The notes beneath the pieces are model-generated. The model ran no database searches. It had not been told where the DNA came from and saw nothing but the letters and a program-made list of their open reading frames with translations. A stretch of 64,000 nt of DNA from Miltoncostaea oceani (GTDB taxonomy: Bacteria; Actinomycetota; Thermoleophilia; Miltoncostaeales; Miltoncostaeaceae): positions 372,001-436,000 of the forward strand of contig NZ_CP064357.1 of assembly GCF_018141545.1 (NCBI RefSeq), written 5' to 3'. Below, piece after piece: positions 25,942 to 43,085 of this stretch (position 1 is the stretch's first letter; every line of letters begins with the position of its first letter). The position numbers and the translations under genes are program-made.

Positions 25942-26103
25942 CCCTCTCTGATCGGATCGTCGGGAGCCGCCGTCTGGATACTCGGCTCACCGCGTTCACC
26001 AGCAACGTACGACACGTAAGCGCCGATGCAGCTGCGATCTGGAGAGGATCGCGAGTGACAGTGAGATCCGCGCCCCGGGCAACCGCAGCCCTAGACTCAA
26101 TGA

Positions 26104-27870
26104 GTGCCCAGGGGTCGCCAGCAGACAATTCTCGGAGCGCGCGCCCGGGCGCGGCGGGCGGTGTCATCGGCACCCGACGGGCAGGCGTTGCTGGAACAGG
26201 CGCTCACCGATGGCGTCGATGCGCTCGTGCGGTCTGACATCGCAGGACTGAGCGGGGAGAAGGGCCACGAACGTCCGGCACTTCAGATGATCGAGATCAT
26301 CCGGACACTCGACGACACGACCGAGGGCGGTCTCGCGCTGATGGAGGCATCGATGATCCAGGCCGAGTTCGGCCGGCCCGATGCGACGCCATCGCCCGAG
26401 CAGCTGGCGGAACGGGCGATCGCCGCCCACGAGCAGCTGCTCGACCAGATCCATGAGGCGCTGATCTTCCCCGATGAGACAAAGCTCCTTGGCGGCATGT
26501 CCCGCGCCGTGGCGAACGCTCTAGAGCATGCTGTATCTGATGAGCTCGAGACGATGATGGGCGCGGGGTTCCCCGTGCGGGCGCCCCGTCAGATGGCCCG
26601 CTACCAGACACGGGCCATCGATCAGCTGCTGCGGACATGCGCCCTTGAGGCCCCCGAGCAGGTGATCCCCCTCGTGGAGGCGGTCGCATCCTGGAAGGGG
26701 ATCGACGACCTGGAGCCCTGGCGTCTGCTGACCGTCGCGGCTCTCGTCCGTGCGGAGGCGATGGCGCCGGGCCAGAACATCACGGCGCGTGGCTCGATGT
26801 CGGCGCTCCTGGATCTCCGCGACGAGCAGTTGAAGTGGTTCCACGCCGAGGAGACCGCTTATCACCGCAGCGGAGACCAGCACGAGCGGCACCTCCATGA
26901 TCTCGGTGTCGCCGCGCCCTACGAGCACGTGCCGGTGTGTGAGGATCTCGACACCGCGCTGGCTCAGGCGCGGGCACTGGTGAATCGGCCCTGGATCGCC
27001 TGCTCGGAGTTCAAGCTGCTCGAAGGGGAGAGCCCCCACCGGCTCCAGGCCCACGTGGTCGTCGAGTCGACGGTGATGCAGACGCTGATCGAGAGGATCG
27101 AGGGCGCCGGTGGGCAGTGCGACCTGATCCTTCTCAGCCAGTTCGACGGGGCCGCGAGCAAGACGCGGGAGCTCAGGGTCGACACCCGTGTCAGAGGCGG
27201 GGCCGAACGCTTCGGTGAGGTCCGGCCGATGCTCGGTCTGCGTCTGTCCCGCCGAGACGGGGACCGGGAGCAGGAGGTCGTGTTCACGACTCCTCTCGGC
27301 GAGCCGGCCGAAGCCCGGGCTGCGTCGGTGCTTCAGCGTGAAGGCACTGCGCGTGCGGTGCGAGCATTCGGTGATCGGTGCGCCGGCCTGTCCTCCGGGC
27401 GCCAGAACCTGCGCCACTGGGATGGTCATCTGGTGTCGGCGATCGGAATCTCGGGAGTGCCGGAGTCGGCTGGCGATGGGGTCTCTCTCGGGGTCTTCGC
27501 CGCTGAGCGGTGCGACCATCACGGGGCCAGCTGGGACGCAGTGCCTCAACGCGCCCTGCGCGCCAAGGTGCTCGTGCTCTCATGCCCCCGCTGCCTGCGC
27601 CGCCAGGCGGCGAGTGTGCCGGTCCAGAGCATCCCCGACCCGGCGCAGCGAGATCAGCTGGCATTGGGTCAGGAGAAGCGGCTGCTCGGCGCCGAGCGCC
27701 GGCGACGCGCCCTCTCCGGCGAGCCGGACTTCCACGGCAGCTGGGAGGACCTGGTCGCCCATTCGCCCGTGGCGTCGCTCGACCCGGCCGACTACGCGGT
27801 CACGCCGCGATCCCAGCAGACGCGGACGGCGACGACAGTCCGTGAGTCGCTTCGCCGCGGCTCCCGGTAG
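26104..27870 (+). CDS. tagged zinc-ribbon paralogue 1 (novel family)
   Basis: A 588-residue soluble protein of a family I do not recognise, present five times in this window. The N-terminus is VPRGRQQTIL (the shared tag) at GTG 26104, 6 nt after TAGACT. Most of the protein is helical. Near residue 470 it has the family zinc site CDHHGASW...CPRCLRR, although the usual EPLHR that follows is VPVQS here. The C-terminus TTVRESLRRGSR matches the family tail SV-x-x-[IL]-[LM]-x-Ser/Arg-Arg. It is the most divergent copy. The position after the RlaP-like gene suggests a role in the same pathway. Confidence 0.82.
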   Translation: MPRGRQQTILGARARARRAVSSAPDGQALLEQALTDGVDALVRSDIAGLSGEKGHERPALQMIEIIRTLDDTTEGGLALMEASMIQAEFGRPDATPSPEQLAERAIAAHEQLLDQIHEALIFPDETKLLGGMSRAVANALEHAVSDELETMMGAGFPVRAPRQMARYQTRAIDQLLRTCALEAPEQVIPLVEAVASWKGIDDLEPWRLLTVAALVRAEAMAPGQNITARGSMSALLDLRDEQLKWFHAEETAYHRSGDQHERHLHDLGVAAPYEHVPVCEDLDTALAQARALVNRPWIACSEFKLLEGESPHRLQAHVVVESTVMQTLIERIEGAGGQCDLILLSQFDGAASKTRELRVDTRVRGGAERFGEVRPMLGLRLSRRDGDREQEVVFTTPLGEPAEARAASVLQREGTARAVRAFGDRCAGLSSGRQNLRHWDGHLVSAIGISGVPESAGDGVSLGVFAAERCDHHGASWDAVPQRALRAKVLVLSCPRCLRRQAASVPVQSIPDPAQRDQLALGQEKRLLGAERRRRALSGEPDFHGSWEDLVAHSPVASLDPADYAVTPRSQQTRTATTVRESLRRGSR

Positions 27871-27939
27871 CCGGCGAGCTGCTGCACGTTTGCCGGCAGT
27901 CGTGCGGCAACCACATGGGCCCACGGGACCGCGAGACGA

Positions 27940-28113
27940 TCAGGGGCGGCGGGACTCCGAGTCATCGCGGGCCTGGGCGAGGGTGATCATCAGCTCGATC
28001 GCCATCTGCTCCCGCCGGCGCTCGGCCGAGTCGATGTGACGGCGCCGCTGACGGAGCCAGATGATGCCGGCTCCCGTCATCAGGAAGCTGATGAGGATGA
28101 CCGCGAGGATCAT
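27940..28113 (-). CDS. small single-pass membrane protein, 57 aa
   Basis: A 57-residue protein with one N-terminal membrane helix (MILAVILISFLMTGAGIIWL) followed by a basic turn and an amphipathic helix. Its ATG overlaps the stop of the upstream gene (ATGA), so the two are coupled and the products may associate. Confidence 0.6.
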   Translation of the reverse strand: MILAVILISFLMTGAGIIWLRQRRRHIDSAERRREQMAIELMITLAQARDDSESRRP

Positions 28114-28325
28114 CCCTGCTGCTCCTGCGCCGCGCGTGCGGCAGCTCGCAGCCTGGCGATCGATGCGCGCGCGTCCTCGAGGGTCGGCTCACCGTCCGAG
28201 CCCCAGGTGCGATCCTCGGACACGGTCTGAGGCTCGGCGGCGGCGGCGCCGCGGCGGATGACGAGACGCCAGACCGTGAAGGCGAGCGCAGCACCGATGA
28301 ACAAGGAGGGAAGGGCCCGACGCAT
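28110..28325 (-). CDS. small single-pass membrane protein, 71 aa
   Basis: A 71-residue protein with an N-terminal membrane helix (LPSLFIGAALAFTVWRLVI) and a helical cytoplasmic tail ending in a Gln-rich stretch. The ATG lies 7 nt after TACCGT on the minus strand. It is first of a two-gene operon with the 57-residue membrane protein. Confidence 0.65.
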   Translation of the reverse strand: MRRALPSLFIGAALAFTVWRLVIRRGAAAAEPQTVSEDRTWGSDGEPTLEDARASIARLRAAARAAQEQQG

Positions 28326-28371
28326 GTCGGTGACGGTAGGCGTCGCGCGTCGCCGCCCGCCGGGTTCTGAG

Positions 28372-28674
28372 CTATCGCCGTCGTCGCTTGTCGCGCCGGG
28401 TCGCTGTCTTCACTCTGACGCTCACCGGCTGGCGCGCGATGAAGCGCAGCTGACGGGCGAAGGCGGGATCGGCGCGGAGGGATTCGATGCTCGAGTACTC
28501 GCGCTCGATCTGGCGGTTGTCGAAGAAGGCGTGGATCGCCCGATGGCAGTCCTCACAGACCCCTTCGGTCTCGGAGCCGTCGCGCGATCGCGGGACCAGG
28601 TGGTGTCTCGTCAGCCGATGTCCGAACACCCGATGACACAGGGGACACTGGAACTCAGCCGCGGGTTCCCTCAT
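28372..28674 (-). CDS. HNH endonuclease-like protein
   Basis: A 100-residue HNH protein: CPLCHRVFG near residue 10, LTRHHLVPRSRDGS near 22 and VCEDCHRAIHAFFDN near 42, giving two zinc-binding CxxC pairs and the HH catalytic motif. The C-terminus is strongly basic (ATRRDKRRRR). A TAGGTT box 7 nt upstream supports ATG 28674 as the start. Confidence 0.82.
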   Translation of the reverse strand: MREPAAEFQCPLCHRVFGHRLTRHHLVPRSRDGSETEGVCEDCHRAIHAFFDNRQIEREYSSIESLRADPAFARQLRFIARQPVSVRVKTATRRDKRRRR

Positions 28675-28820
28675 CGGTGACAACCTAGCCGACCTCTGGA
28701 GGCCGGCCGTCGAGAACTCCTCGTTCGCCGATTACCCGTGTCTGGTTCCTCCACGTCGACCTCCTGGCCGGCGGCGCGATAACGCGTGTGCGCGTCTGCG
28801 GCATTCGCATCATCGCTTCG

Positions 28821-28949
28821 ATGAAGAACCTCACCCCGGTCCGGCGCTCCATGCGCCGACACGCCATGACGCTCTACTGCGTCGCGGCCGGGTTCGCGGT
28901 CCTTGCGAGCGCATCCGCCGCACAGGCCGCGACCTGGATCCGCCGCTAG
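28821..28949 (+). CDS. possible 42-aa signal-peptide-like peptide
   Basis: A 42-residue frame: basic start (MKNLTPVRRSMRRHA), a hydrophobic core ending in Ala-rich sequence (SASAAQAA) and only five residues after. It resembles a bare signal peptide. It could be a small secreted peptide precursor, a decayed gene or chance. The hairpin right after the stop favours a real transcript. Confidence 0.35.
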   Translation: MKNLTPVRRSMRRHAMTLYCVAAGFAVLASASAAQAATWIRR

Positions 28950-28995
28950 CCCCTTCGGGGCCCGCGTTGGCGACACCGTTCAGATGCCGACCTTG

Positions 28996-29018
28996 GAGGG
29001 CCGCCGCGCGCGGCCCTC
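28996..29018 (+). terminator. strong GC hairpin
   Basis: GAGGGCCGC pairs with GCGGCCCTC (9 bp) around CGCGC. It lies between the small frame and the GNAT-like gene; no T tract. Confidence 0.45.
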
Positions 29019-29073
29019 AGGCGTTCACGGAGATCCGGGGAGGTGGCGATCCCGGGCGTAGGATCCGGTCACG

Positions 29074-29904
29074 ATGGCGCGCGGACGAGGAACCAGTCGA
29101 GCAGGCACCGCGACCCTCAGGGCCCCCTCAGGACCGGCTTCGGTCTGTCGTGCGCTGGATCTCGAGCGGATCACGACACACAAGGGCGTCGAGCTCGAGC
29201 TCGGCTACGCCTGGGACGTCGACGACGGCATCGCTGAGGGCTGGACGGTCCACCGCCTCGGGGTCCAGGCGCGTGGGCGCGAGGCGGGTTATCTGAAGAT
29301 CTCCTACGTCCCCGCAGACAGGGCGGCCCGGCTGTTCCCCGACCCCTTCCACTACGCGCTGGAGCGGTCGGGGTCCTTCTACGCCCTGAAGCGGCTCCTG
29401 GAGCGGGCCCCGGAGGCCGAGTGGGATGAGCCGGAGCTGCGGGCCGCGGTCGAATCCGGTCGCGGGTGGGTCCCCTGGGATGAGCAGCAGCGCCTGAAGG
29501 GTCTCGGTGCATGCGGTCTCCGCGACGAATGGGCGGCGGTCAGGTCGAGGATCCAGGAGGACTTCGCCGAGCAGCACCGCTCCTTCCTCGAGTTCCACGT
29601 CGACAAGCCCCTGGTGGACTACATCCGAGTCTTCGACGGCTACGACTGCGATGGTGAGGACGACTTCCGCCGCCAGGGCATCGCGTTGTCGCTCTACGCG
29701 GTCGGCGCCCGCTGGATGGCCGCGAACGGCATGTGCCTCTGGGCGAGCGGGCTCCAGAGCGAGGAGGCTGCAGAGGCCTGGGAGCGGCTGGGACAGACCC
29801 TGCCGATCGGGGTCGCTCCGTCGACCAACATGGCGGGCGAGTCCCGGACGCGCAGGTTCCTGGACGGCGCGCTTCTCGATCCGATCGAGGCGCAGGCGCC
29901 CTAG
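29074..29904 (+). CDS. GNAT-like acetyltransferase with MARGR tag
   Basis: A 276-residue protein. After the tag MARGRGTSRAG there is a beta-rich region. The C-terminal part has VDYIRVFDGYDCDGEDDFRRQGIALSLY, in which RRQGIA resembles the acetyl-CoA-binding R/Q-x-x-G-x-A motif. It is followed by ARWMAANGMCLWAS and EAAEAWERLG, the order seen in GNAT enzymes. The acceptor is unknown; GNAT proteins in conflict settings often modify aminoacyl-tRNA or proteins. A TAGGAT box precedes the ATG by 9 nt. It overlaps the convergent antitoxin-like gene by 4 nt. Confidence 0.7.
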   Translation: MARGRGTSRAGTATLRAPSGPASVCRALDLERITTHKGVELELGYAWDVDDGIAEGWTVHRLGVQARGREAGYLKISYVPADRAARLFPDPFHYALERSGSFYALKRLLERAPEAEWDEPELRAAVESGRGWVPWDEQQRLKGLGACGLRDEWAAVRSRIQEDFAEQHRSFLEFHVDKPLVDYIRVFDGYDCDGEDDFRRQGIALSLYAVGARWMAANGMCLWASGLQSEEAAEAWERLGQTLPIGVAPSTNMAGESRTRRFLDGALLDPIEAQAP

Positions 29905-30233
29905 GTCAGGAAGTGGTCCGCCGCGGCCGACACAGCGGACATGTCGCCTGCGCGCAGGGCGTCGCTCGGTGTCCTGTCGCCCAGCAGGTCGTTGCGGCCG
30001 ATGAAGAAGGCCCGCGCCTGTTCGGGTGAGGTCGCCGCCTCGATGCGCCCGAAGACCGCGCTCGCGGCCTGGAGGCGCCGGATCTGCTCATGGTCCGGCC
30101 GCGAGGACTCCGCGTTCCAGGCCGCGACATGCGGGCGGCCGGCGGCGGCGATGTATCCGACGAGCGCCGGCCCGAGTCGCTCGGTGAGCGCACGGCTGAG
30201 CGTTCCGGTGGTCGAGAGGGGGATGCCAGGCAC
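29901..30233 (-). CDS. MbcA/ParS-type antitoxin-like protein
   Basis: A 110-residue protein. The C-terminal half (ARAFFIGRNDLLGDRTPSDALRAGD) matches the DUF2384 toxin-binding domain of Xre/MbcA/ParS antitoxins; the N-terminal half has a HTH-like helical region. The usual RES-domain toxin is not adjacent. The convergent GNAT-like gene is the only neighbour and is not co-directional, so this may be an orphan antitoxin. Confidence 0.72.
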   Translation of the reverse strand: MPGIPLSTTGTLSRALTERLGPALVGYIAAAGRPHVAAWNAESSRPDHEQIRRLQAASAVFGRIEAATSPEQARAFFIGRNDLLGDRTPSDALRAGDMSAVSAAADHFLT

Positions 30234-30336
30234 AGACCGACCCTAGGTCTGGTCCTTGCGCCCCCGCTGGTTCCTCGCAGTGTTTCCCTGCCCCGGCCCA
30301 CAACCGCGCAGCTATGGAACCGGGGCAGAGCTTTAC

Positions 30337-30362
30337 GGCCTGAGCCTCGGAGGCGTCAGGCC
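30337..30362 (-). terminator. hairpin at the end of the secreted-protein gene
   Basis: GGCCTGA pairs with TCAGGCC, and inside it GCCT with AGGC around CGG, giving about 11 bp. It overlaps the stop codon of the minus-strand gene. A second inverted repeat (CTGCCCCGG / CCGGGGCAG) lies just beyond, around 30289-30329. Confidence 0.45.
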
Positions 30363-30709
30363 AATTCGATGTAGAAGCTGCTCGGGTTGCCGCTGCCCCG
30401 GTTGTCGAACTGTCCGGTGATCAGACCCGAGAGGTTCAGCCCGATGACGTGGTACTGGGTGCTGGTCCATTCCCAGTAGCCCCAGGTCGCCCCGTCGGAG
30501 CTGCGCAGGAGCTTGAAGCGGTAGGGCAGCCCCGTTGAGCTGTTGGCCTTCGCAACCTCCTGGACCGGGTTGTTCAGCGACAGGCAGCTGACGTAGTCGG
30601 CGGAGGCGTTGACGTTGCAGTTAGTCGAGGCACCCTGTGCCGGCGTCGCGAGTAGGGCCATGCCGACGGAGGCGCCACAGATGGCCGTGAGGAGGCGACG
30701 TGTCAGCAT
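30356..30709 (-). CDS. small secreted protein
   Basis: A 117-residue exported protein with signal peptide MLTRRLLTAICGASVGMALL and cleavage near AQG-AS. The mature part has cysteines (NCNVNASADYVSC) and Trp/Tyr-rich strands (WGYWEWTST). It probably binds something at the cell surface; the family is unknown. It overlaps the end of the upstream lipoprotein gene, so it is probably in the same operon. Confidence 0.65.
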   Translation of the reverse strand: MLTRRLLTAICGASVGMALLATPAQGASTNCNVNASADYVSCLSLNNPVQEVAKANSSTGLPYRFKLLRSSDGATWGYWEWTSTQYHVIGLNLSGLITGQFDNRGSGNPSSFYIELA

Positions 30710-31269
30710 GAGGGGCGCTCCTCGACCGAGCCGACCGGGAACTGGCATGCGGGCATCGGCGGGATGTCGATCGCCGCTCCCTCGGGGAGGGCGCGGCCCG
30801 CGGCTTTGGCCTCATCCAGGCGCTGGCGGAACTCCTCGGGCGTGAGGCTGCCGGGGAGCGCGTAGCTCGGCGGACGGATGCGTCGTTCATCGACAGACCA
30901 GCCCCAGGGTGCGGTCAGGGACAGACGGAGCCCCTGGCTGTCATCGGCGGGCAGCACCGCAACCACCTCGGAGGGAAGCGGCTCGGCGATCGATGTGCCG
31001 GGGGGCAGGGCTCCCCGCTCAGCGACGCTGATGTAGAGCTCTCGCAGGGCCTCGGGGTAGTCCGTCCCCGCGGTGAAGACCAGAGACGGCTCGCCAGGCA
31101 CCTCATCGATGGCGGGGGAGCCGTCCGGCTGGCTGATCCAAGGCATGTCCTCGAGCTGTGGATCATCGGCTGACTGAGGGGCCGCTGATGCCGCGCATGC
31201 CGACAGAACCGGGACCAGGATCAGGAGGATGAGCAGTCGTGGGGTGAATCGGGGATTGGGCATGCTCAC
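30703..31269 (-). CDS. lipoprotein sharing an ectodomain with the anti-sigma protein
   Basis: A 188-residue lipoprotein: hydrophobic signal then lipobox LSAC near residue 24. The mature domain resembles the extracellular part of the anti-sigma-like protein at 31866: PWISQPDGSPAIDEV against PWLKQADGSPHILEV, PSLVFTAGT against PSLAFPPRT, and APWGWSV against APFGYSL, ending in Pro-rich ACQ/PCQ. It is divergent from the sigma factor gene across 73 nt, so it may be part of its regulon and compete with or tune the anti-sigma sensor. Confidence 0.8.
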   Translation of the reverse strand: MSMPNPRFTPRLLILLILVPVLSACAASAAPQSADDPQLEDMPWISQPDGSPAIDEVPGEPSLVFTAGTDYPEALRELYISVAERGALPPGTSIAEPLPSEVVAVLPADDSQGLRLSLTAPWGWSVDERRIRPPSYALPGSLTPEEFRQRLDEAKAAGRALPEGAAIDIPPMPACQFPVGSVEERPSC

Positions 31270-31342
31270 GCATACCTCCGAGCAGGTGCTCTGCTTCCCG
31301 TGCGAGTGAAAGAATCTTCCCGCGAAAGGTAGGCTCCCTCGC

Positions 31343-32684: not shown

Positions 32685-32748
32685 CTTCGAGGCATTCGAG
32701 GCGGGTGAGAATCCGTCCGCGCCGCCAGGTCGTCCTACCCTCGGGTCT

Positions 32749-34527
32749 GTGAGCAGGGGCCGCGGCATAAGGACCAGCGACCTCGAAAGACGCGTCGCGA
32801 GCCAGGAGTCGCTCACCGAGCGACGCCGGGCCCGAACGCGCGAGGATCTCGAGCTGGCGCGAGAGCTCGTCCCCGAGCTCGATCGAACTCTCCTCGTGGC
32901 GCTCCTGGCGGGGTGCCCTCCGCCACGCGCGCTCGCGCCCACCACTCCGCCGTCGACCAGGCCCTTCACCGACGGACAGGCGGACCTCCTGATCGCGGCG
33001 ATCCTCTTCCGTCGAGAGACCGGAGAGGAGACGACAGCGAGGGTCGCTGAGCAGTTGCAGCGGGCACTGGAACTCCAGAAGGCCCACCTCGGTCTGTTGG
33101 AGGGTGCGATCGAGCGCCCACGCCTCAAAGGATCCATCGACCTGCTCGCGGCCTGGAACCGCACCGGCGCACTCGCCGCGCGCGACCTTCACCAGGAAGC
33201 CCGCGTTCGACTGCGGCAGATCGAGGAGTGCATCCTCGATCACACGCGACTCGACCCGGTGGCCGCCCGGATCGCGGGGCACCACCTCGATGGCGCCGTC
33301 TCGAAGCGGCTCGCGGCGCTCTTCTCGGATGGGCAGCCCCGGCGAGCCGCGGATCTCGTTGAGGCCTTTCGTGCAGAGGATGTGAGCGATCCGCCGGTGG
33401 CAACCGACGCCGAGAGCCTGTCGATGCTCAGGGGGCTCGCCCTGTTCGCGGGTTCGGTGAGTGCCTCCGACCGGAACTGGGTCGCCGAGCTGCGCTCCCC
33501 ACGGGAACTGCGCCGAAGCTGGCTGTCGCTCGCAGGGGGCCGGCTCGCAGGCGATCAGTGGGAGGCGGACCTCTATGAACACGGCATCCTGAACCGCTGG
33601 CTGGTGATCCCCCCGAGCCACGACGCGCAGACCGCGCGGGCGTGTGTCGGTGCGTTGCTGCGGTGTCCGCAGATGGCCGGAGCCGGCGCTCCCGGCGCGG
33701 GTTGGAGGCTCTCCGCCGAGCGGGAGATCCACACCCACGTCCGCGCCGAGGCCGAGCTGCCGGCCTTCAAGGAGCTGATCGCGGCGCACCTCGGATCTCC
33801 GGAGAGTCTCGGGCTCGTGATCCTGGAGGAGGCGTACGACCCCGAGCCCCAGCTCCAGCCCCGGGCGCGCGCGACGCAGACGGAGGTCCGTGCCGCCCAC
33901 CGGGCCCAGTCCCTGGCCCTTCGCCTGCGGATGCGCCTCGAGACCGGGCTGACGACCATCGACTACGTCCTCCCGCTCGGCCAGTCGCGGGCCCGCTCGC
34001 CCGAGCGACGCCGTCAGGAGGCGGAGAGCCAGATCGAGGCGCTCGGTGTCGATCCCCGCGCCATGGGCACCCTGGCGCCCGAGAGCGAGACCTGGGACGG
34101 CCGGGCGATCCTCCAGAGGCGGCACGCGATCGATGATCAGGCACCAGCGGTTTCCCGTGCTGCGGTCCTCGGCGATGAGGGTTGCTCGCATCCGGGGGCC
34201 AAGTGGAGGCCCGTCGTCCGCGCGCCGGGTTCATCAGGGGTCATCCATGCCCAGTCGCTTCGGTGCCATCGCTGCATGCGCGCCAAGGTGGCCGTCGAGC
34301 CCCTTCACCGATCCGCCCCCGGGCTGATCCGAAAGCCTGATGCCTATCTCACGGTCCAGGCCGGCTTCGACGCCCTCGAGGGTCGTCCCCCGGTGGGATC
34401 GATCTCGGAGCTGATCGAGCGGGACGGCCGCGCCGATCTGCGCCCGGCGATCTACTCGACCCCATCAGCGGTCGAGCCGCCCACCACGGGGAGCGTCTCG
34501 TCGATCCTCTCACGAGGCGCGCGGTGA
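32749..34527 (+). CDS. tagged zinc-ribbon paralogue 2 (novel family)
   Basis: A 592-residue family member. The start GTG 32749 (VSRGRGIRTS) is 7 nt after TACCCT, and an earlier in-frame start would overlap the anti-sigma gene. Largely helical with charged helices near residues 20-45. The zinc site is CSHPGAKW near 478 and CHRCMRAKVAVEPLHR near 505. The tail is GSVSSILSRGAR. It overlaps paralogue 3 by 4 nt (GTGA), so the two are made together and may form a heteromer. Confidence 0.85.
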   Translation: MSRGRGIRTSDLERRVASQESLTERRRARTREDLELARELVPELDRTLLVALLAGCPPPRALAPTTPPSTRPFTDGQADLLIAAILFRRETGEETTARVAEQLQRALELQKAHLGLLEGAIERPRLKGSIDLLAAWNRTGALAARDLHQEARVRLRQIEECILDHTRLDPVAARIAGHHLDGAVSKRLAALFSDGQPRRAADLVEAFRAEDVSDPPVATDAESLSMLRGLALFAGSVSASDRNWVAELRSPRELRRSWLSLAGGRLAGDQWEADLYEHGILNRWLVIPPSHDAQTARACVGALLRCPQMAGAGAPGAGWRLSAEREIHTHVRAEAELPAFKELIAAHLGSPESLGLVILEEAYDPEPQLQPRARATQTEVRAAHRAQSLALRLRMRLETGLTTIDYVLPLGQSRARSPERRRQEAESQIEALGVDPRAMGTLAPESETWDGRAILQRRHAIDDQAPAVSRAAVLGDEGCSHPGAKWRPVVRAPGSSGVIHAQSLRCHRCMRAKVAVEPLHRSAPGLIRKPDAYLTVQAGFDALEGRPPVGSISELIERDGRADLRPAIYSTPSAVEPPTTGSVSSILSRGAR

Positions 34528-36329
34528 GCCGCGGGCGCGGCAGTGCGGACCGGGTCGTACGCGGTCTCGGCGCTCCCCGGACCCCGCTGTCGGTGAGTCA
34601 GGCGCCCGATGACTTCGCCCAGCTCATCGAGGCGTCCGAGCAGCACTACGCGGTCATGATCGATGGGATCCTCAACTCCGGTACGCCCGTGCGCCAGATC
34701 GGTGGCGCCCTGCTGGGCCTGGATCACGAGTTCGCTGACGGTGAGGGCTACGTCCAGGTCGCCGGCTACCGCCTCCTCACAGGCTGCCCCGGAGATGAGG
34801 TCCTCGACACCCTCGTCCAGGCGCGGGAGCGGCATCTGTCGTTGCTCGAGCGGGCCGGCGCGATAGGCGATCCGCCCAGCTGGAGCGCCTTCGCCTCCGC
34901 GATCGGACTCGAGCGCCTCGACTTCGAGTGCTTCCAGGCCTTTCGCGAGAAGGTGCGACAGCGCGTGGCCGAGTTGGAAGTGATGGCCCCGGACTCCCCG
35001 TACCTGGAGTCGCTGGCAAGGAGTCTGCGTATCGGCGTCCTCGGTCACTTGGGCAACGAGCGCCTCGGCGCGCTGCTCATCGGCGGTGAGGCGGAGCGGG
35101 CCCGTGTCCTTGCGACGCAGATCATCGCCCACAGGACAGGCATCGCCCCGGCGGGGCCGTTCGCCACTGATGGGACGCTCGTCGGACTGGCGCGCTTCGC
35201 CGCGCACATGGGCCAGGACCTCGACGCACACTGGGTCGATCTGATCTGTGATCCGGATTCAGCCCGGGAGGTCCATGCCGAGCTCTACAACTCCAGGCTC
35301 GGTGGCGATCGCAATGAGGACATGCTGTACCGGATCGGAGTCCTGAGTCCTCAGAAGACCCCGATCGCAACCACCGAGCAGATGGCGGTGGCCCAGGTCC
35401 ACGCACTGCTCCGCTGCCCCCGGATCGTCGGCGGCGGCGACCGGGCGGGGATAGGGGAGCATGTGAGGGTGGGCGTCGACGAGGCGACGTTCCGTGCCCT
35501 CGAGCATCGCTACCGGAACGCTCCTGAGCGGGTCGGTCTCCAGATCCACCGCCAGGTGCGTGGCCCCTGGGCGCCGGAGGAGGGTCGCGACCCGATGGGC
35601 CCCGACTTCTCCGCCCTGGAGGACGACTCGGTGCGGATCCTGCTCGGACTGAGGCTGAAGGCCAACCTCGACGGCCGGGGGACCACCATCGAGTTCATGC
35701 TCGAGCTCGAGGAGATGCCTCACGCCAACGACACTCACCTGCGGGGGGTCGCAGCCGAGGCGACCGCCCGGCTGCTCGGACCGAGCGCCGCCGAGGGGAT
35801 GACCGAGGAGACAACCCGGCTGCCCGTCTGGTCCGGCGCCGGTCACCTGCCGACCTACGGGGCGGACACCCATGGCGTGCCGGCACTCCATGAGGATCTG
35901 CTCGGACCGCGGCAGTGCGCCCACGAGGGCGCCACCTGGCAGCTCGTCCCCGGCCGTTCCCCGATCGAGCCCTCGAGGGCGCGCGTCGATTCGTTCGCGC
36001 TCAACTGCCCGTCTTGCCTGCGAAAGCGCGTGGTCGTCGAGCCCCTCCACCGATCGCCCGCCGAGCTGGGTGACTTCATCGGGAAGGTCATCTCCCCGGA
36101 GGACTATCTGGCAGCCGAGACCGAGATGGCTCTCCTGCGGTCTGATGAGCGCCCGGTGGAGGACCTCGCGGGGTTGATCGCTCGCGACGGCACGTTCGAT
36201 CCGGATCCCGCGGCCTACACCAGCGACATCCCCTCCGGACCGCCCGCGCCGAGCGCGAGCGTGCGGGAACTGCTCCTGCGCACACGACGGGGCGGGGAAG
36301 CGATCGGGGCAAGGACCCGTATTACCTGA
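34524..36329 (+). CDS. tagged zinc-ribbon paralogue 3 (novel family)
   Basis: A 601-residue family member starting VSRGRGSADR at a GTG overlapping the previous stop. The middle part has a stretch common to copies 3, 4 and 5 (a short helix with CPR or RNP, then V-x-V-x-x-x-T-[FL] and a DP/ER-LGL segment). The zinc site is CAHEGATW near 465 and CPSCLRKRVVVEPLHR near 495. The family tail ASVRELLLRTRR is followed by a short extension. A C-terminal LIARDGTFDPDP motif is shared as LRARDGVIDP in copies 4 and 5. Confidence 0.85.
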   Translation: MSRGRGSADRVVRGLGAPRTPLSVSQAPDDFAQLIEASEQHYAVMIDGILNSGTPVRQIGGALLGLDHEFADGEGYVQVAGYRLLTGCPGDEVLDTLVQARERHLSLLERAGAIGDPPSWSAFASAIGLERLDFECFQAFREKVRQRVAELEVMAPDSPYLESLARSLRIGVLGHLGNERLGALLIGGEAERARVLATQIIAHRTGIAPAGPFATDGTLVGLARFAAHMGQDLDAHWVDLICDPDSAREVHAELYNSRLGGDRNEDMLYRIGVLSPQKTPIATTEQMAVAQVHALLRCPRIVGGGDRAGIGEHVRVGVDEATFRALEHRYRNAPERVGLQIHRQVRGPWAPEEGRDPMGPDFSALEDDSVRILLGLRLKANLDGRGTTIEFMLELEEMPHANDTHLRGVAAEATARLLGPSAAEGMTEETTRLPVWSGAGHLPTYGADTHGVPALHEDLLGPRQCAHEGATWQLVPGRSPIEPSRARVDSFALNCPSCLRKRVVVEPLHRSPAELGDFIGKVISPEDYLAAETEMALLRSDERPVEDLAGLIARDGTFDPDPAAYTSDIPSGPPAPSASVRELLLRTRRGGEAIGARTRIT

Positions 36330-36360
36330 GAGCCTGAACCCCGAACGACGTTGAGTGCCC

Positions 36361-36900: not shown

Positions 36901-36918
36901 CGGACAGAGCGCCCGGTG

Positions 36919-38601
36919 TCAGCGTGATCGGCTGTTCAGGAGATCGCGCACGGAGCCCCTGGCGCCAGCGCGCGCCGGAACATCCACCTGGACGCGGGGG
37001 GAAGGCCTCGGGTCGATCACCCCGTCGCGAGCACGGAGCTGCGCGATCGTGAGGGTCTCGGAGCTCTCTTCACCGCGCAGGCGCGCTGCGAGAACGACCC
37101 TCTCGCAGTAGTGCCGGCGGCGCTCGAGGGCGTCGGCCACACTCGTCGTCCCGGTCCCGGACTCCGAGGAGTGGGCCACGATTCTCAGGTCGTCAGGAAG
37201 TCGGTGGAGGGGCTCAGCGCGCAGACGCAGGCGCAGGCAGTCCGGACAGGACAGCAGAGCGGTCTGGTGGCCGCTCTCGCGCCACTGGGCGTTCTCGTGC
37301 CTGCAGGAGTCCGGCCCGAGGAACGACGTCCGCGACGCCGGCTCGGAATCGGGTCGGTCGCTCTCGACCTGCCTCAGCGAGAACAGACCCCGGGTCCGAT
37401 CCTCTTTGACCGCCAGCTCGCTCCAGGAGACCGGCACGTCAAACCCGAGTGCCTGCACGGCCTCGCTCATGCTGTCATCGGGCCGACCCCGGAAGGAACC
37501 GGCGTCCAGGATGAACCGGACCTCCACCTCGCCCATCTCAGGCACCTGGGCCGCCTTGCGCGCGCAGGCGTAGAGGTTCGCCCTGCTGTGGCCCGTCAGG
37601 CCCGGAGATGGTCTCCCAGTGCGGCCACCGGCCCCGCCACCGGCGATGAAGCCCCCGAGCTCGAGGGCCGGGTCCTCGCGCAGCAGCCGGCGAAGCGTCG
37701 GGTGGTCGACCTCCACGATCGCCTGGAGAACGGTCCCGGCCTTCCGGGGCTCGCCCCCCATCATCATGTAGGGGTTCCGGAGCAGCCCCTGGGCCCGTGC
37801 CCGAGCCTGCCTGGCGCTGGTGGCGGTCGGCTGCCAGCCGAACCAGTGCGGCCGGTGTTCCTCGCGGTGGAGGACCGACTCTGCCTCATCCCCGAAGGAC
37901 CGCTCCGCCCGCTCCATCCGGGCGAGCTCGCTGAAGACCCCCTCGCTGAGGCTCTCCCAGATGCCTGAGGGGACACAGGCGACGCGCGCGTCATGCTCGA
38001 GCGCGATCCTCGCGAGCTCGACCTCGCGTTCGTCGATCGTCGCGTCCCAGGCCTCGGAGTCACCGAAATAGGCGACTGCAAGCGCCCGCAACCAGTCGAT
38101 CTTGCCCTCGCGGATCGCCTTCTCGACCTGATCGTCGAAGGCGGACGCGCGCAGTTGCTCCTCGAACCGGACCATCCGGCGCTGGGCGATCCCGAGGGCC
38201 TTCTGATCGACGGGCTCGGTGGTCGGGAAACCCATCGCGGCCTGCAGGCTCCGGCACTGGAGCAGGGTCCCGAGGAGCGTCTTCTCCCTGTTCGTGCCCT
38301 CCTGGGGGTTGTTCTTCGTGATCCTGCGAGCCCTGATAGCGGCGAGCTCCTCCTCGATCTCCTGGTCGCGCGCCTCGAGAGTCTCCTTCGCCCGCCCGCG
38401 CGAGTCGGGCGTCGCGGCGTGGAAGTCGTAGAGAGCCGTGAGGGCGGGCTGGCTTCTCTCACTGGCCCGGAGCAGGCACAGGTCTCGATACGCTGCGTCC
38501 AGGTGTGCCCGCGCCTCGACGATCGCCTCGTCTCGTGAGCTACCGCGCGGCTGCGCTGATGCGGCGGCGGCACTTGCAGGTGTGCGGGATCCCCGGGCCA
38601 T
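36919..38601 (-). CDS. tagged zinc-ribbon paralogue 4 (novel family)
   Basis: A 560-residue family member. ATG 38601 gives MARGSRTPAS; a CATCCT box lies 7 nt upstream, and a longer in-frame start would pass through it. Helical N-terminal two thirds. The zinc site is CRHENAQW near 430 and CPDCLRLRLRAEPLHR near 448. A stretch LRARDGVIDPRPS and the tail GSVRDLLNSRSR follow. It is divergent from the gene pair that encodes the Thg1-like enzyme, with a 104-nt intergenic region holding both promoters. Confidence 0.85.
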   Translation of the reverse strand: MARGSRTPASAAAASAQPRGSSRDEAIVEARAHLDAAYRDLCLLRASERSQPALTALYDFHAATPDSRGRAKETLEARDQEIEEELAAIRARRITKNNPQEGTNREKTLLGTLLQCRSLQAAMGFPTTEPVDQKALGIAQRRMVRFEEQLRASAFDDQVEKAIREGKIDWLRALAVAYFGDSEAWDATIDEREVELARIALEHDARVACVPSGIWESLSEGVFSELARMERAERSFGDEAESVLHREEHRPHWFGWQPTATSARQARARAQGLLRNPYMMMGGEPRKAGTVLQAIVEVDHPTLRRLLREDPALELGGFIAGGGAGGRTGRPSPGLTGHSRANLYACARKAAQVPEMGEVEVRFILDAGSFRGRPDDSMSEAVQALGFDVPVSWSELAVKEDRTRGLFSLRQVESDRPDSEPASRTSFLGPDSCRHENAQWRESGHQTALLSCPDCLRLRLRAEPLHRLPDDLRIVAHSSESGTGTTSVADALERRRHYCERVVLAARLRGEESSETLTIAQLRARDGVIDPRPSPRVQVDVPARAGARGSVRDLLNSRSR

Positions 38602-38705
38602 TCCACCCAGGATGCGGCCGGTGCCCCCACCTCGCGCGGATTCCTCACAGCTCACGAGTCGGATGACCCCGATGCAAGTCCCACTACCCGTCGTAGATTC
38701 ACTTC

Positions 38706-39491
38706 GTGCCCCGCGGTCGCTCCACCCAGACACGCAAGTCCCCTCACGCCCTGCGCCCGGCGGGCTTTCGCCGGCCCGCCGGAGGCACCCCTCTCACCGC
38801 GCGGGCAGGGGTCATCCTCTCCACCTCAGCGCCCTCCCGGGCGACGATCAACATCGACTCGCTCCCGCGTGCCTGGCGCGCGCATCTGGACGAGTTCAAC
38901 ATCGTGATCGGCGACGACGCCGATGAGGTCCTCGCCCGGTTCACCGGCACCCCGTATCTGCACATCGGATCCTCCGGCCGCGTCTCCTTCCCGAGCCTCT
39001 GCGCCCTCGCCGAGTACTGCTGCCAGACCGCCGCCGAGGAGTTCGACGAGGACGAGTGGCAGCGCCTGCGAGCAAAGGACAGCGGTGCGCTTCGCACGAT
39101 CCGCATCCTGTCGCGCGTCCGCGGCCTTCTGCGAGCCGAGGGAGAGGGACCCTTTGACGTGAAGGCCCTCGAGTCGGCGAGCCGGGTGATGCTCGGATCG
39201 CCGAGCGACCGGCTCACGCCCTTCGAGGACTTCGTCGGAGAGCACACGTGTGTGCTCGGCGAGCGCCTCGGCTACCCGATCCTCGAGCTGCACGGCGACG
39301 GCGTGGTCTCGGTGGCGAGTCGGGAGACCGGACATCAGGTGGTCGAGCTGAGCGCCTCCGAGTACCGCCACCTGAGGGCCTATGTGGCTGCGATCGAGGG
39401 TGGACCGGCGAGCCGGCTTACGATCAGGGCGGCGAACCCCAACCGTTGGAAGGTCATGGAGCGGATGTGGCCCGAGACGGCCTGGTCGTGA
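38706..39491 (+). CDS. tagged hypothetical protein coupled to Thg1
   Basis: A 261-residue protein starting VPRGRSTQTRK, then a Pro/Arg-rich flexible region to about residue 50 and a mixed alpha/beta domain after it (FNIVIGDDADEVLARF, YLHIGSSGRVSF). No family was recognised. The GTG is 6 nt after TAGATT in a CGTCGTAGATTC context that also occurs before the membrane operon at about 10780. Its TGA overlaps the GTG of the Thg1-like gene, so the two are made together. Confidence 0.75.
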   Translation: MPRGRSTQTRKSPHALRPAGFRRPAGGTPLTARAGVILSTSAPSRATINIDSLPRAWRAHLDEFNIVIGDDADEVLARFTGTPYLHIGSSGRVSFPSLCALAEYCCQTAAEEFDEDEWQRLRAKDSGALRTIRILSRVRGLLRAEGEGPFDVKALESASRVMLGSPSDRLTPFEDFVGEHTCVLGERLGYPILELHGDGVVSVASRETGHQVVELSASEYRHLRAYVAAIEGGPASRLTIRAANPNRWKVMERMWPETAWS

Positions 39492-40294
39492 GCGCGCCCT
39501 CGCTCACGGACGCGCTCACGGCACCGACCCGCGACGGCCTGGGCGACCGCATGAAAAGCTATGAGGTGCAGACGCGAACGGTCCTGCCGAGTCGCTCATG
39601 GACGATGATCCGTCTCGACGGAAAGGCGTTCCACTCCTGGACGCGCGGCCTGGAGCGCCCCTGCTCCATCCGACTCGTTGATGCGATGGGCGAGGTGATG
39701 GTCGCACTCTGTGAGCAGATCCCGAACGTCTGCTGCGCCCTCCAACAGTCGGATGAGCTGTCGCTGGTCACCCACGACTTCGCGCGCCCCGGGACGGAGG
39801 CCTGGCACGGAGGGCAGGTCCAGAAGATCGTCTCGGTGTCGGCGTCGCTGATGACGGCGCTCTTCGCCCGTCACTTCCCCGATCGAGCGCCCGCGGTCTT
39901 CGACGCGCGTGTGTTCACGCTGCCGAGCCGCGTCGAGGTCGCCAACGCCCTTCACTGGCGCTACCTCGACGGCAGGCGCAACGCGGTCAACGCCGTCGCC
40001 TCCTCGATGTTCTCCACCAGGCAGCTGCATGGTGTGCCGACCGTTCAGCGCAGGGAGATGATCGAGGCGGCCGGCGTCAGCCTCGGCAGCTTCGATCCCC
40101 GGTTCATGTCCGGTCAGTTCGCGCGGCAGGTCCCGCGGCTGCGCACCAGCTACACCGACAAGCGCACCGGCGAGACCGTCCAGCTGGACCCGCCGGCGAT
40201 CAGCCGGGAGTGGCAGGTCGGCCCGGCGCCCGAGCTGAACGCCCAGCCGGGCGGAATCCTGCTCTCGGAGCTGCTGCCCGCCGACCCGGAGTAG
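39488..40294 (+). CDS. Thg1-like 3'-5' RNA polymerase
   Basis: A 268-residue member of the tRNA-His guanylyltransferase family, which adds nucleotides to RNA 5' ends in the reverse direction. LGDRMKSYEVQ opens the domain. MIRLDGKAFHSWTRGL carries the first metal ligand (Asp44), and LQQSDELSLV the second (Asp89-Glu90). PAVFDARVFTLPS and the WR-x-x-D-RRNAVNAVA region match later family signatures. Bacterial Thg1-like proteins repair 5'-truncated tRNAs, which fits the two RNA ligases and RlaP-like protein nearby. The start GTG overlaps the upstream stop; about 20 residues precede the domain. Confidence 0.93.
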   Translation: MSAPSLTDALTAPTRDGLGDRMKSYEVQTRTVLPSRSWTMIRLDGKAFHSWTRGLERPCSIRLVDAMGEVMVALCEQIPNVCCALQQSDELSLVTHDFARPGTEAWHGGQVQKIVSVSASLMTALFARHFPDRAPAVFDARVFTLPSRVEVANALHWRYLDGRRNAVNAVASSMFSTRQLHGVPTVQRREMIEAAGVSLGSFDPRFMSGQFARQVPRLRTSYTDKRTGETVQLDPPAISREWQVGPAPELNAQPGGILLSELLPADPE

Positions 40295-40350
40295 CGCAGG
40301 GCGTCGAAGCGCGGCATCTGGCACACGCCGCCGCGCATCTGATCCCCCTC

Positions 40351-40665
40351 CTAGAGGGCTCGGCCCTGCTGCGGCTCCACGATGTGCACCTCGGAGGCAA
40401 GGCACGTGACCTGGATGCTCTCGAGGGTGGCGATGCCGTCGGAGATCACGGGAGCACCCGGCGACCAGAGGCGGAGCTCGATGGTGCCGGTGGTCTGGGT
40501 CAAGGCGGCGATCTGCCCGATCAGGACCTGGCCGTCGGGCATCCGGTAGGCGACGATCAGCCCGTTCTTGAGGGCGCGGCCGTCCGGGGTCCTGACGCGA
40601 GGCTTTCGCCCGTAGCCGCTGACGAACACGCTCCCGTCGGGGCCCGTGGTGACCTTCTCGCTCAC
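40351..40665 (-). CDS. hypothetical beta-rich protein, 104 aa
   Basis: A 104-residue protein of beta-barrel-like character (VAYRMPDGQVLIGQIAAL, TGTIELRLWSPG), starting at a GTG that overlaps the stop of the RNase AS-like gene. It may be an accessory factor of that nuclease; no family was recognised. Confidence 0.65.
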   Translation of the reverse strand: MSEKVTTGPDGSVFVSGYGRKPRVRTPDGRALKNGLIVAYRMPDGQVLIGQIAALTQTTGTIELRLWSPGAPVISDGIATLESIQVTCLASEVHIVEPQQGRAL

Positions 40666-41165
40666 AAGGAGGCCGCCGCCATGAAGCAGGTGCGGTCCCA
40701 GAGCGCGTCAGCGAGCGCGTGGTGCTCGGGTCCGTCGTGAGGCGGCAGGTCCGCCTTCGCGACGCCGAGCGCCTCGAAGTAGTGCTTGAGGTCCCGGAAG
40801 GCCGAGGGCCAGCCGGCGGGGCGGTTGAGCATGTCGCCGAAGAGGCTCATCAGCACGACCCAGTCGCTCGCGCCGTTGTAGGCCCAGAACTGCGGGTCAG
40901 GGGCCGAGCCGACGAAGGAGGTGATCGTTCCTGCCATCTGCTGCGCGGGGACCGATACCGCCGCGCCGGGCCCGTCGAGGTGCGGCCGGACGTTCTCGGA
41001 GAGCCATGGGCTTACGCGCGGATCCGACCAGTCGAAGTCCGCGTTTTCGAGGTAGAGCTCCCTGCCATCCTCGGCGGCGATGCCGATCGAGATCAGGTGG
41101 TAGCTCGCGTGCCCCGGGGTGGACGCAGCGAGGAACTCGGTGTCGAAGAAGAAGCGTGTCGGCAT
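40662..41165 (-). CDS. RNase AS-like 3'-5' exoribonuclease
   Basis: A 167-residue DEDD-superfamily exonuclease. TRFFFDTEF carries the first acidic pair (Asp8, Glu10), FWAYNGASDWVVLMSLFG the middle Asp, and PEHHALADALWD the final His and Asp. The layout, including YHLISIGIAAEDGRELY, matches RNase AS of mycobacteria, which trims adenylate-rich RNA 3' ends and matures tRNAs. In this neighbourhood it could clean damaged RNA 3' ends before ligation. It is coupled to the small gene downstream. Confidence 0.87.
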   Translation of the reverse strand: MPTRFFFDTEFLAASTPGHASYHLISIGIAAEDGRELYLENADFDWSDPRVSPWLSENVRPHLDGPGAAVSVPAQQMAGTITSFVGSAPDPQFWAYNGASDWVVLMSLFGDMLNRPAGWPSAFRDLKHYFEALGVAKADLPPHDGPEHHALADALWDRTCFMAAASL

Positions 41166-41276
41166 CAGCTCACGGGAAGGGTGGGGGTGAGGTGCTGGCC
41201 CCGATCGCGACGGACCGCCGCGGGGACTGGAACCAAGATACGACGGGATCCCGGAGCGACCTGACTCGGTCCCTGC

Positions 41277-43076
41277 CTAGCGGCGACGGCTCATCATGAT
41301 GGCGCTGACGCTTCGCGGTGACTGGGGGGTCGAGTCGGGCGCGGGGGTGCTGGCATAGCGTGCCGGGCTCGGGTCGATGACCCCATCGCGTGCCCGGAGC
41401 TCATCGAGGCCTTCGAAGGGCCGGTCGTCGTGGCGCAGGAACGCGTGCACGCGTTCCTGGCGCAGGTAGGCCGCCTCATCGAAATCGAGGAGCCCTGCGA
41501 TCGACCGCTCGGGGAAGCGGTGGACGGGCTCGACCGCGATCCTGCGGCGAAGGCAGGTCTCGCAGGAGAGACCGAAGGTGTCCGGGCAGTCGCCCTCGGC
41601 GCCACGGATCGGCCGCCAGCTGCCGCCGGGGTGATCGCACTCATCGGGGCCGAGCAACTCGAGGGGGCGCCGCCAGTAGCGCGGCTGGTCCGCGCCGGGC
41701 GGCGTGGATCGCACCGACATGGAGCTCCAGGCGTCCTCCACCAGATGACTCTCTGGTGAGCGCCACGACGGCCAGTGAGGATGAAGCTCGGCCTCCGCGA
41801 GAAGGTCCTCCGGCGTCGAGGCGGTGCTCTCCCCGAGATCCATCAGGTAGCGGACCTCGACCTCTGTGCCGTCGACCACCGCGTGCCCGCGGGCGACCCC
41901 GAGAAGGAGGTCGTGGTCCGCGCGGCCGAGGCCGGGGCGCGGCCGATCCGCCGCGACGGTGCTTCCCACTTCGTCATCCGCCCGGAGCCTCAGGACTCCG
42001 AGCTCGAGATCGGGGTCCTCGCGCACGAGGTCCGCGAAGGTCGCCTCGTGGACGGCGACCGAGACGCAGATCCCCTGCGCCGCGATGTTGGTGACGCCGA
42101 ACCGGTCGGCGTCGCGGATCAGCCCGCGCGCCTGGGCGCGCGCATCGGCCGGGCGGTGGCAGAGCGGCAGCCGGTCCGAGACCGCGGCCTTGATGGGCTC
42201 AGGCTCCAGCTCGACCGCCTCCTGGCCGAGCCTCCTGCGAGCGGCGAAGCGGTGGAAGCGACGGACCGCCATCTCCCGGGAGAGTCCGTGGAGCAAGTTC
42301 TGGGTCGGGGCGTGAGTCCGGTTGTTGAGGGAGTAGTCGGTTGCGAGGGCACCGAGGACGGTGAGCTCCTCATGGGTGATCCCCTCGTATTCGCTCGGCT
42401 TCCCCATCGGGACCCGCCGGGCGAGCTCTGAGACCAGGGAGCGCACCGAGTCCGTATCCCGCGCAAGCAGGCGCTCCTGAACCGCCGGATCGACCCCCTC
42501 GGTCATGAGGCGCCGACGCAGTCCCGTCATCTCCTCGAGGGCGTGTGAGGTCGGCCTGGGGGCTTGTTGATGCAGCGTGCTCCAGCTGAGCTGGACGGGT
42601 CCGCTTTCTGGGACGTCGCCCATTGACGCGATCACCGCCCGGGCGTCGGCGTAGTTGTTCCTGGCCTGGGACAGCTTCTTCTCGAGCTCGACGAGCCCTG
42701 GAGTCCCGACGGGGAGCCCATACTGGGCGCAGCGGGTCTTCGCCTTCAGCGGCTCGGGCCAGCCGAGATCCCCCCGGATGTCCCTCTGAGCGTTCTCGGC
42801 CTCCTGATCGAGCATGCTGAGAAGAGAAGCCGCTTTCAGGATGGTCGCGCCATCGCGACTGGCGATCCCCGCAAGGACAGCGTTGAACAGCTCGTCCTGC
42901 CTGGAGCCAGTACTGACGTCCGTGTCGGCTGACTCACGCAGGAACTGCGCCCGGCATTCGGCCTCGGCTGCGGTTTCGATCTCGTCCATCGCCACCACAG
43001 CGGCCCACCGGTCATGACCCGCGGCGCGGCTTGCGGCACCGCCGGCCAGCCGGCGTGAGGCTCGTCCGCGGGGCAC
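41277..43076 (-). CDS. tagged zinc-ribbon paralogue 5 (novel family)
   Basis: A 599-residue family member starting VPRGRASRRL at GTG 43076, only 9 nt after the PP2C gene, so probably in one operon with it. Helical N-terminal region, then AQARGLIRDADRFG and VRYLMDLG (matching RARAQGLLRNP and VRFILDAG in copy 4). The zinc site is CDHPGGSW near 480 and CETCLRRRIAVEPVHR near 505. LRARDGVIDPSPA and the tail RSVSAIMMSRRR end the protein. The operon link suggests control by phosphorylation. Confidence 0.85.
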   Translation of the reverse strand: MPRGRASRRLAGGAASRAAGHDRWAAVVAMDEIETAAEAECRAQFLRESADTDVSTGSRQDELFNAVLAGIASRDGATILKAASLLSMLDQEAENAQRDIRGDLGWPEPLKAKTRCAQYGLPVGTPGLVELEKKLSQARNNYADARAVIASMGDVPESGPVQLSWSTLHQQAPRPTSHALEEMTGLRRRLMTEGVDPAVQERLLARDTDSVRSLVSELARRVPMGKPSEYEGITHEELTVLGALATDYSLNNRTHAPTQNLLHGLSREMAVRRFHRFAARRRLGQEAVELEPEPIKAAVSDRLPLCHRPADARAQARGLIRDADRFGVTNIAAQGICVSVAVHEATFADLVREDPDLELGVLRLRADDEVGSTVAADRPRPGLGRADHDLLLGVARGHAVVDGTEVEVRYLMDLGESTASTPEDLLAEAELHPHWPSWRSPESHLVEDAWSSMSVRSTPPGADQPRYWRRPLELLGPDECDHPGGSWRPIRGAEGDCPDTFGLSCETCLRRRIAVEPVHRFPERSIAGLLDFDEAAYLRQERVHAFLRHDDRPFEGLDELRARDGVIDPSPARYASTPAPDSTPQSPRSVSAIMMSRRR

Positions 43077-43085
43077 GCCCGGATG

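Follow-up and report, generated by a model that had tools for sequence, protein, structure and literature searches.

The 64-kb stretch of Miltoncostaea oceani DNA analyzed here (contig NZ_CP064357.1, positions 372001-436000; hereafter the window) encodes five members of a protein family without any known relative. The family has about 16 members on the 815,643-bp replicon (C2), and most of them begin with a short peptide, M-[AGSP]-R-G-[RKSQHM], that also heads dozens of unrelated proteins encoded by C2. This N-terminal tag (N-tag) is an add-on to working domains, as judged from alignments, and within this genome the N-tag, a second, C-terminal tag (C-tag) and the family itself are all restricted to C2. 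We favor, at about even chances, the reading that the N-tag is a docking or sorting signal gathering plasmid-encoded proteins, with the ribbon family described below as its largest client or hub group. Coordinates are marked "window" when they refer to the 64-kb stretch and "C2" when they refer to the whole contig.

A Ribbon Family Encoded by C2

The initial annotation had described five genes in the window whose products, of 560-601 residues, share one order of features, and had recognized no family for them. All five are present at the places and lengths it gave, and the order of features is confirmed: C-x-H-x-x-[GA]-x-x-W, C-x-x-C-[LM]-R, E-P-x-H-R (altered in copy 1), DG-x-x-D-P and an SV[RS]x[IL][LM] tail. 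The genes and the promoter elements assigned to three of them are as follows:

Window 26104-27870, plus strand: copy 1, 588 aa; N-tag MPRGRQQT; ribbon at 27511-27594; C-terminal tail TVRESLRRGSR
Window 26092-26097, plus strand: -10 box TAGACT of copy 1, leaderless placement
Window 32749-34527, plus strand: copy 2, 592 aa; N-tag MSRGRG; C-terminal tail SVSSILSRGAR
Window 32736-32741, plus strand: -10 box TACCCT of copy 2, leaderless placement
Window 34524-36329, plus strand: copy 3, 601 aa; N-tag MSRGRG; ribbon C465/H467/C495/C498; C-terminal tail SVRELLLRTRR followed by 12 residues
Window 36919-38601, minus strand: copy 4, 560 aa; N-tag MARGSR; C-terminal tail SVRDLLNSRSR
Window 41277-43076, minus strand: copy 5, 599 aa; N-tag MPRGRAS; C-terminal tail SVSAIMMSRRR
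Window 43083-43088, minus strand: -10 box TAGCAT of copy 5, leaderless placement

Copy 2 starts at the GTG codon at 32749, giving MSRGRG, with the -10 box ahead of it, and its gene overlaps that of copy 3 by 4 nt (GTGA); the initial annotation had called the two translationally coupled. A gene does precede copy 5 where a PP2C gene had been named, but its likeness to PP2C is weak (PP2C_2 E = 0.029, below the cut-off).

Chance resemblance among the five copies was ruled out by a leave-one-out search with hidden Markov models (HMMs) against 8145 open reading frames (ORFs) of C2, in which copies 1-5 were found at E-values of 1.6e-28, 7.8e-43, 6.6e-52, 2.9e-36 and 1.4e-47, respectively. A tblastn search with copy 3 found copies 2, 4 and 5 (9e-30, 2e-6 and 6e-21) and missed copy 1. 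When a full-length HMM and an HMM of the C-terminal domain were iterated over C2, about 16 members were gathered, 14 of them firm and two more distant; none was found on the 3.68-Mb replicon of the same genome (C1). The leave-one-out run missed members 12 and 14, which earlier models built without them did find. The members outside the window are:

C2 436231-438006: firm member
C2 315510-317384: firm member
C2 339406-340665, minus strand: firm member
C2 26681-27829: firm member
C2 456842-458086, minus strand: firm member
C2 504818-506533: firm member
C2 23085-24629: firm member
C2 287956-289746: firm member
C2 367129-368691: firm member
C2 120846-122549: distant member (E 6e-24)
C2 87672-89462: distant member (E 1e-8)

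Identity to copy 3 is 21-30%, and in a 13-member alignment the C, H, C and C of the ribbon and one P are invariant. This C-H-C-C set probably binds zinc, to judge from its residues. The N-tag and a flexible linker open the common layout; a divergent helical part comes next, then a small alpha/beta domain, and the ribbon, the DG-x-x-D-P segment and the C-tag close it in that order.

None of the libraries tried places the family. The five copies had no match at a meaningful E-value in Pfam, NCBIfam, PHROGs or PDB sequences; copy 3 had none in phage and plasmid collections, nor did copies 3 and 5 in IMG/VR. The family HMM found nothing in 398 other genomes of the class and 395 others of the phylum at limited sensitivity (3 or 11 candidates scored per genome). 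The collections were searched with single copies or with limited candidate scoring, and absence of the family elsewhere is therefore provisional. An AlphaFold model of full-length copy 3 was poor (pLDDT 43.5). The middle domain was modeled at pLDDT 68 as a predicted alpha/beta unit of the order H-E-H-E-E-E-H, and comparison of this model with known structures gave no clear match (best Z 5.6, Foldseek E 0.06). We attribute the lack of a useful structure to the shallow alignments.

An N-Terminal Tag Confined to One Replicon

M-[AGSP]-R-G-[RKSQHM] is found at 62 of 774 gene starts on C2. One of these (C2 583182) lies inside a GGDEF gene and is probably false; the remaining 61 genes comprise 13 of the 16 ribbon-family members and 48 genes outside the family. 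Genes were called with our own caller, and the tag was used in correcting their starts; this could favor tags, but the scrambled controls underwent the identical procedure. At the same starts, the G-R order was found four times, R-x-G four times, the motif shifted by one residue once and shifted by four residues twice. A shift by two gave 15 cases, because the tag often reads RGRG. Residue 2 is A, G, S or P in the 62 cases, against only two with any other residue, and residue 5 is R in 46 of the 62 and otherwise K, S, Q, H or M. An approximate consensus reads M-[AGS]-R-G-R-[GS]-x-[TRS]-[TAG]. In an unbiased scan for terminal motifs, no N-terminal motif of C2 ranked above RGR at residues 3-5 (log10 p -14), and C1 gave nothing comparable. 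Under a strict pattern, in which a -10 box stands 4-9 nt ahead of the tag, there were 33 matches on C2, none in 360 kb of C1, none on the 46.6-kb C3 and none for the control of swapped order.

Beyond this genome, a related tag pattern has 14 matches here and at most 2 in the 398 other genomes of the class. Single matches in two genomes of the same genus fall in one membrane-protein gene (ComEC-like by eye) and were judged coincidental. The tag was not found in the Bosea plasmid pBSY19_1 or in 400-kb portions of a Priestia megaplasmid and an IMG/VR jumbo contig, and a search of the literature returned no report of N-terminal tags common to plasmid proteins.

Behind the tag, acidic and hydrophobic residues are scarce up to about residue 18, and the composition is normal by residue 25-30; the first D or E appears at a median of residue 22 in tagged proteins, against a comparison value of 9. 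Tagged genes are spread over C2, with none reliable at about 538-742 kb, the region with transfer genes. Given these ~200 kb without a tag, C2 may be a mosaic.

The tag stands in front of domains whose homologues lack it. The tyrosyl-tRNA synthetase (TyrRS) of C2 starts MARGRSHGTTGRPRHSGPALDPGE and matches the host TyrRS encoded by C1 (62% identity) only from residue 27. Similarly, alignment of the tagged HNH-RNA ligase with its homologues from IMG/VR and from plasmids sets in only at residue 17-22, about where the viral homologues begin, and alignments with PDB sequences start at residue 20 for TyrRS, 44 for the CCA enzyme and 72 for the 3'-5' exonuclease.

The C-tag, a helix tag of the form SVRxLLxRxR, is present on most family members and on about four unrelated proteins. 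With a matrix built from 13 family tails, 18 C2 C-termini score at least 12 bits, 13 of them being the seeds, against none of 1810 C1 ORFs, and four unrelated C2 proteins (302615, 524981, 13153 and 427635) score 16-23. Two of these four (524981 and 427635) carry the strict N-tag and one the variant MARGAR; Fisher's test for co-occurrence of the two tags, with the variant entered so that three of four count, gives p = 0.002, which is indicative only. Two weaker-scoring SWIM-like proteins are N-tagged as well. Most N-tagged proteins have no C-tag.

Proteins that Carry the Tag

In addition to the five family copies, the following tagged proteins are encoded in the window:

Window 142-867, minus strand: protein of no known family, 241 aa; MSRGRAGG
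Window 3208-4056, plus strand: metallophosphoesterase-like protein, 282 aa; MGRGRRQTTG
Window 8845-9078, plus strand: small protein, 77 aa; MARGRKKSG
Window 9451-10659, minus strand: T4-Rnl1-type RNA ligase, 402 aa; MGRGHSGR
Window 14297-14632, plus strand: small protein, 111 aa; MSRGRSHPP
Window 17022-18131, plus strand: HNH + RNA_ligase protein, 369 aa; MGRGKRQSG
Window 24734-25516, plus strand: RlaP, 260 aa; MGRGRSHG
Window 29074-29904, plus strand: protein of no known family, 276 aa; MARGRGTS
Window 38706-39491, plus strand: protein of no known family, 261 aa, adjoining an untagged Thg1 (39467-40294); MPRGRSTQ
Window 55635-56198 (C2 427635), plus strand: doubly tagged protein of no known family, 187 aa; MARGKSGT, C-terminal tail SVSAALRAGSR

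Over the whole of C2, Pfam assigns tagged proteins to RNA_ligase, RNA_lig_T4_1, RlaP, the CCA/poly(A) enzyme (PolyA_pol), TyrRS, a RecD2-like helicase, Sigma70, a 3'-5' exonuclease, metallophosphoesterases, AAA_33, GmrSD_N, a Tsp45I-like enzyme and YkuD; ArdC-like, DHH/RecJ-like and SWIM-like proteins were recognized by eye. That enzymes of RNA and DNA repair share the tag, as first noticed in the window, holds far above chance for RlaP, several RNA ligases and the RecD2-like helicase. The tagged proteins at C2 294306, 524981 and 13153-14007 form a small expanded group with LHRxDGPAV-type repeats (toast-rack/MORN-like by eye). LAGLIDADG domains occur in a tagged RNA ligase (C2 228076-230313, minus strand) that, by eye, seems to be split by an intein, and in a protein of 1642 aa (C2 736121-741049); an intein splicing domain was matched in 3 of 44 large C2 proteins.

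The Replicon

C2, with a G+C of 0.70, accompanies C1 (G+C 0.75 in a 360-kb sample) and C3. A single-contig genome of the same genus measures 3.4 Mb and is thus similar to C1 alone, and for this reason C2 looks like a replicon additional to C1. It encodes its own copies of DnaE, DnaK, SecA, LigA, RNR and NAD synthetase, gyrase-type genes (by sequence), ~40 tRNA genes and tmRNA; a 16S rRNA signature was searched for on C2 and not found. Its conjugation-type set consists of PrgI, a VirB4/TraG-type ATPase with the TraG P-loop and a large M23/NLPC_P60 peptidoglycan hydrolase, the proteins by which we assign a type IV secretion system (T4SS) to C2, and ParB is present. A profile search of genome contigs with the T4SS ATPase gave a distant clostridial relative as its sole match. 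We read C2 as a conjugative, chromid-like megaplasmid. A phage origin was considered and is unsupported: T4SS and ParB are present, and no head or shell family is among the PHROG families listed (25 of 126) for 44 large C2 proteins, head genes not having been searched for singly.

Two large tRNA arrays lie at C2 351661-362802 and 489088-502222, and the tmRNA gene, with the tag ADNRLALAA, at C2 455863-456215 on the minus strand. RNA-repair genes in the window are those of two RNA ligases (9451-10659, minus strand, and 17022-18131), RlaP (24734-25516) and Thg1 (39467-40294); their position adjoining tRNA arrays suggests protection against tRNA-cutting defences.

What the Tag May Do

How could so short a peptide serve such different proteins? 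Since A, G, S and P at residue 2 permit removal of the initiator methionine, methionine aminopeptidase would expose a free [AGSP]-R-G-R, which may then serve, in the protein itself, as a docking or sorting signal that brings together plasmid-encoded proteins, most of them related to nucleic acids, in one location. A docking or sorting peptide is favored by the fixed N-terminal position, the A/G/S/P rule, the basic core, the flexible linker and the unrelatedness of the enzymes behind it. N-terminal signals for membranes require a hydrophobic stretch, and because the tag lacks one, a label for co-localization inside the cell is the favored form. The ribbon family, being the largest labelled group and bearing both tags, would most likely be the hub or adaptor set of the assembly. 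A more elaborate version, which we put forward tentatively and hold to be possible rather than probable, is an address system of the plasmid in which a plasmid-encoded receptor reads the free [AGSP]-R-G-R and ~60 plasmid proteins collect in a single body, located either around the plasmid or at its transfer channel and built or organized by the 16-member, doubly labelled family.

Several points weigh against a docking or sorting signal. Neither a receptor nor a shell was identified: the bacterial microcompartment (BMC) shell family PF00936 had 0 matches in the genome, controls being detected. Structure prediction, for full-length protein and middle domain alike, yielded no fold for the family, and the tag is known from one genome only. 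The initial annotation proposed that the family members may be structural or RNA-binding components that assemble with one another and with repair enzymes bearing the same tag; the sharing stands, but assembly with the repair enzymes is too narrow a proposal, as the tag is found also on a restriction enzyme, a sigma factor and a protein that is not a nucleic-acid enzyme at all, an L,D-transpeptidase. Conversely, many DNA and RNA enzymes of C2 are untagged, including Thg1, two PTH2, GluRS, gyrase-type genes, DnaE, DnaK and RNR, as is one RNA ligase (C2 44996-45718), and the tag thus marks a chosen subset.

A DNA tether is an unlikely alternative, in which the RGR core and the basic, flexible flank would act as an AT-hook-like minor-groove binder fastening plasmid-encoded proteins to DNA. 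In Lsr2 and H-NS, an AT-hook-like Q/RGR motif enters the minor groove, and silencers of the RGR type are found in low-AT hosts (PMC4466236); the tag is RG[RKQSH] followed by an acid-poor basic flank, and many of its cargoes are DNA or RNA enzymes. However, an AT-hook is position-independent, yet a shift by one residue is seen in 1 case against 62; moreover, minor-groove binding does not explain the restriction of residue 2 to A/G/S/P, and position 5 accepts S, Q and H. No Lsr2/H-NS domain was matched by Pfam in the five copies, nor was one among the families listed (25 of 45) for 49 tagged proteins.

Less probable still is a delivery label, by which the T4SS would carry tagged proteins into the recipient with the plasmid, so as to protect and express the incoming DNA. 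The transfer proteins of C2 fit this, as does a cargo that seems to comprise anti-restriction proteins (ArdC-like by eye), RNA-repair enzymes and a sigma factor; Arg motifs at the C-terminus are among the known signals of T4SS substrates (PMC10025392), and the C-tag on 18 C2 C-termini is Arg-rich. No consensus signal covers all T4SS cargo, but the signals are usually C-terminal (PMC10025392), whereas the broader tag of C2 is N-terminal. A Tsp45I-like sequence-specific nuclease and TyrRS would also be odd cargo.

The two remaining explanations place the cause in the DNA or mRNA rather than in the peptide. In 38 of the 62 tagged genes, TAnnnT lies 12-16 nt ahead of the start codon, a placement as for leaderless mRNA, and an A-rich stretch lies 25-29 nt upstream of this -10 box, weaker in untagged genes; together, the two elements perhaps form a separate promoter class. 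The tag could be a relic: a module of promoter and start would have spread through recombination or gene conversion, with the peptide hitch-hiking along without a function. Tag and leaderless promoter do often travel together, and the tag fronts an enzyme close to the host TyrRS. Nevertheless, R3, G4 and the A/G/S/P rule persist although the flanks and synonymous sites vary, which argues for selection on the protein, and tagged genes without the promoter exist, being operon-internal or behind a ribosome-binding site (copy 3; C2 516183 and 292723); we regard a relic as very improbable. All six Arg codons are used in the tag (CGA 16, CGC 15, CGG 11, AGA 10, AGG 6 and CGT 4), as are all Gly codons, with A-ending codons enriched (GGA in 28 of 62, against 10% genome-wide), and from this synonymous variation we conclude that the tag acts at the protein level. 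Least probable is an mRNA-level element, in which the first codons would recruit ribosomes on leaderless transcripts with the peptide as a by-product: the shared promoter and the A-enrichment speak for it, but the codon variety, the tagged genes that are not leaderless and ~118 untagged C2 genes with leaderless-type starts, whose first codons and residues are unrelated, speak against it and indicate that leaderless translation can do without the peptide.

Comparison with Known Systems

Bacterial linear sorting signals are known for membrane crossing and for the loading of small compartments. Similar in form to the tag of C2 are the compartment cargo tags, that is, encapsulation peptides, encapsulin cargo peptides and phage capsid-targeting peptides, in which, as on C2, a short terminal peptide and a linker are added to unrelated enzymes. 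The difference is that the genome has no BMC shell gene, no search having been aimed at encapsulins or capsids, and we know of no compartment cargo-tag motif that the C2 motif resembles. With the Q/RGR motif of Lsr2 and H-NS the tag shares the basic flank, a high-GC host and, in the 46 of 62 cases with R at residue 5, the RGR core, but that motif lies inside the DNA-binding domain of one regulator, whereas the C2 tag is a fixed N-terminal add-on of ~60 unrelated proteins. T4SS substrates of the VirF type resemble the C2 proteins in an Arg-rich C-tail and in the presence of a T4SS on the plasmid, but the main tag of C2 is N-terminal.

Among large replicons, pBSY19_1 of Bosea and other plasmids of 0.4-1.3 Mb, including some of Pseudomonas, encode a relative of the HNH-RNA ligase (about 40-48% identical), and pBSY19_1 has an annotated aminoacyl-tRNA hydrolase and a DUF262 gene near its RNA ligase. 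Unlike C2, pBSY19_1, the only such plasmid checked for tags, has no N-terminal tag, and no ribbon-family member was found in it. This unrelated megaplasmid has an expanded family of its own, with ~18 paralogues of 300-400 aa and a conserved, acidic C-terminal D-x-x-L-x-x-L (12 cases, against 0.6 expected). On a 424-kb viral contig (IMGVR_UViG_3300017565_000001), ~18 small ORFs, probably a paralogous family, end in F-[KR]-[LM]-x-[FW].

A parallel in purpose is import into the phage nucleus (Chimalliviridae, PicA), where a selfish replicon sorts its own nucleic-acid enzymes, as C2 would; there, no terminal signal was found and a recognition surface has been proposed (PMC11087766), whereas C2 shows a clear linear N-terminal motif. 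If a docking or sorting signal is the right reading, a plasmid is able to mark out a protein territory within its host by labelling dozens of the soluble enzymes that it encodes, among them one closely related to the host TyrRS. The tag could then be used as a marker in looking for further systems of the kind, and it makes testable whether giant plasmids organize a space of their own, as nucleus-forming phages do.

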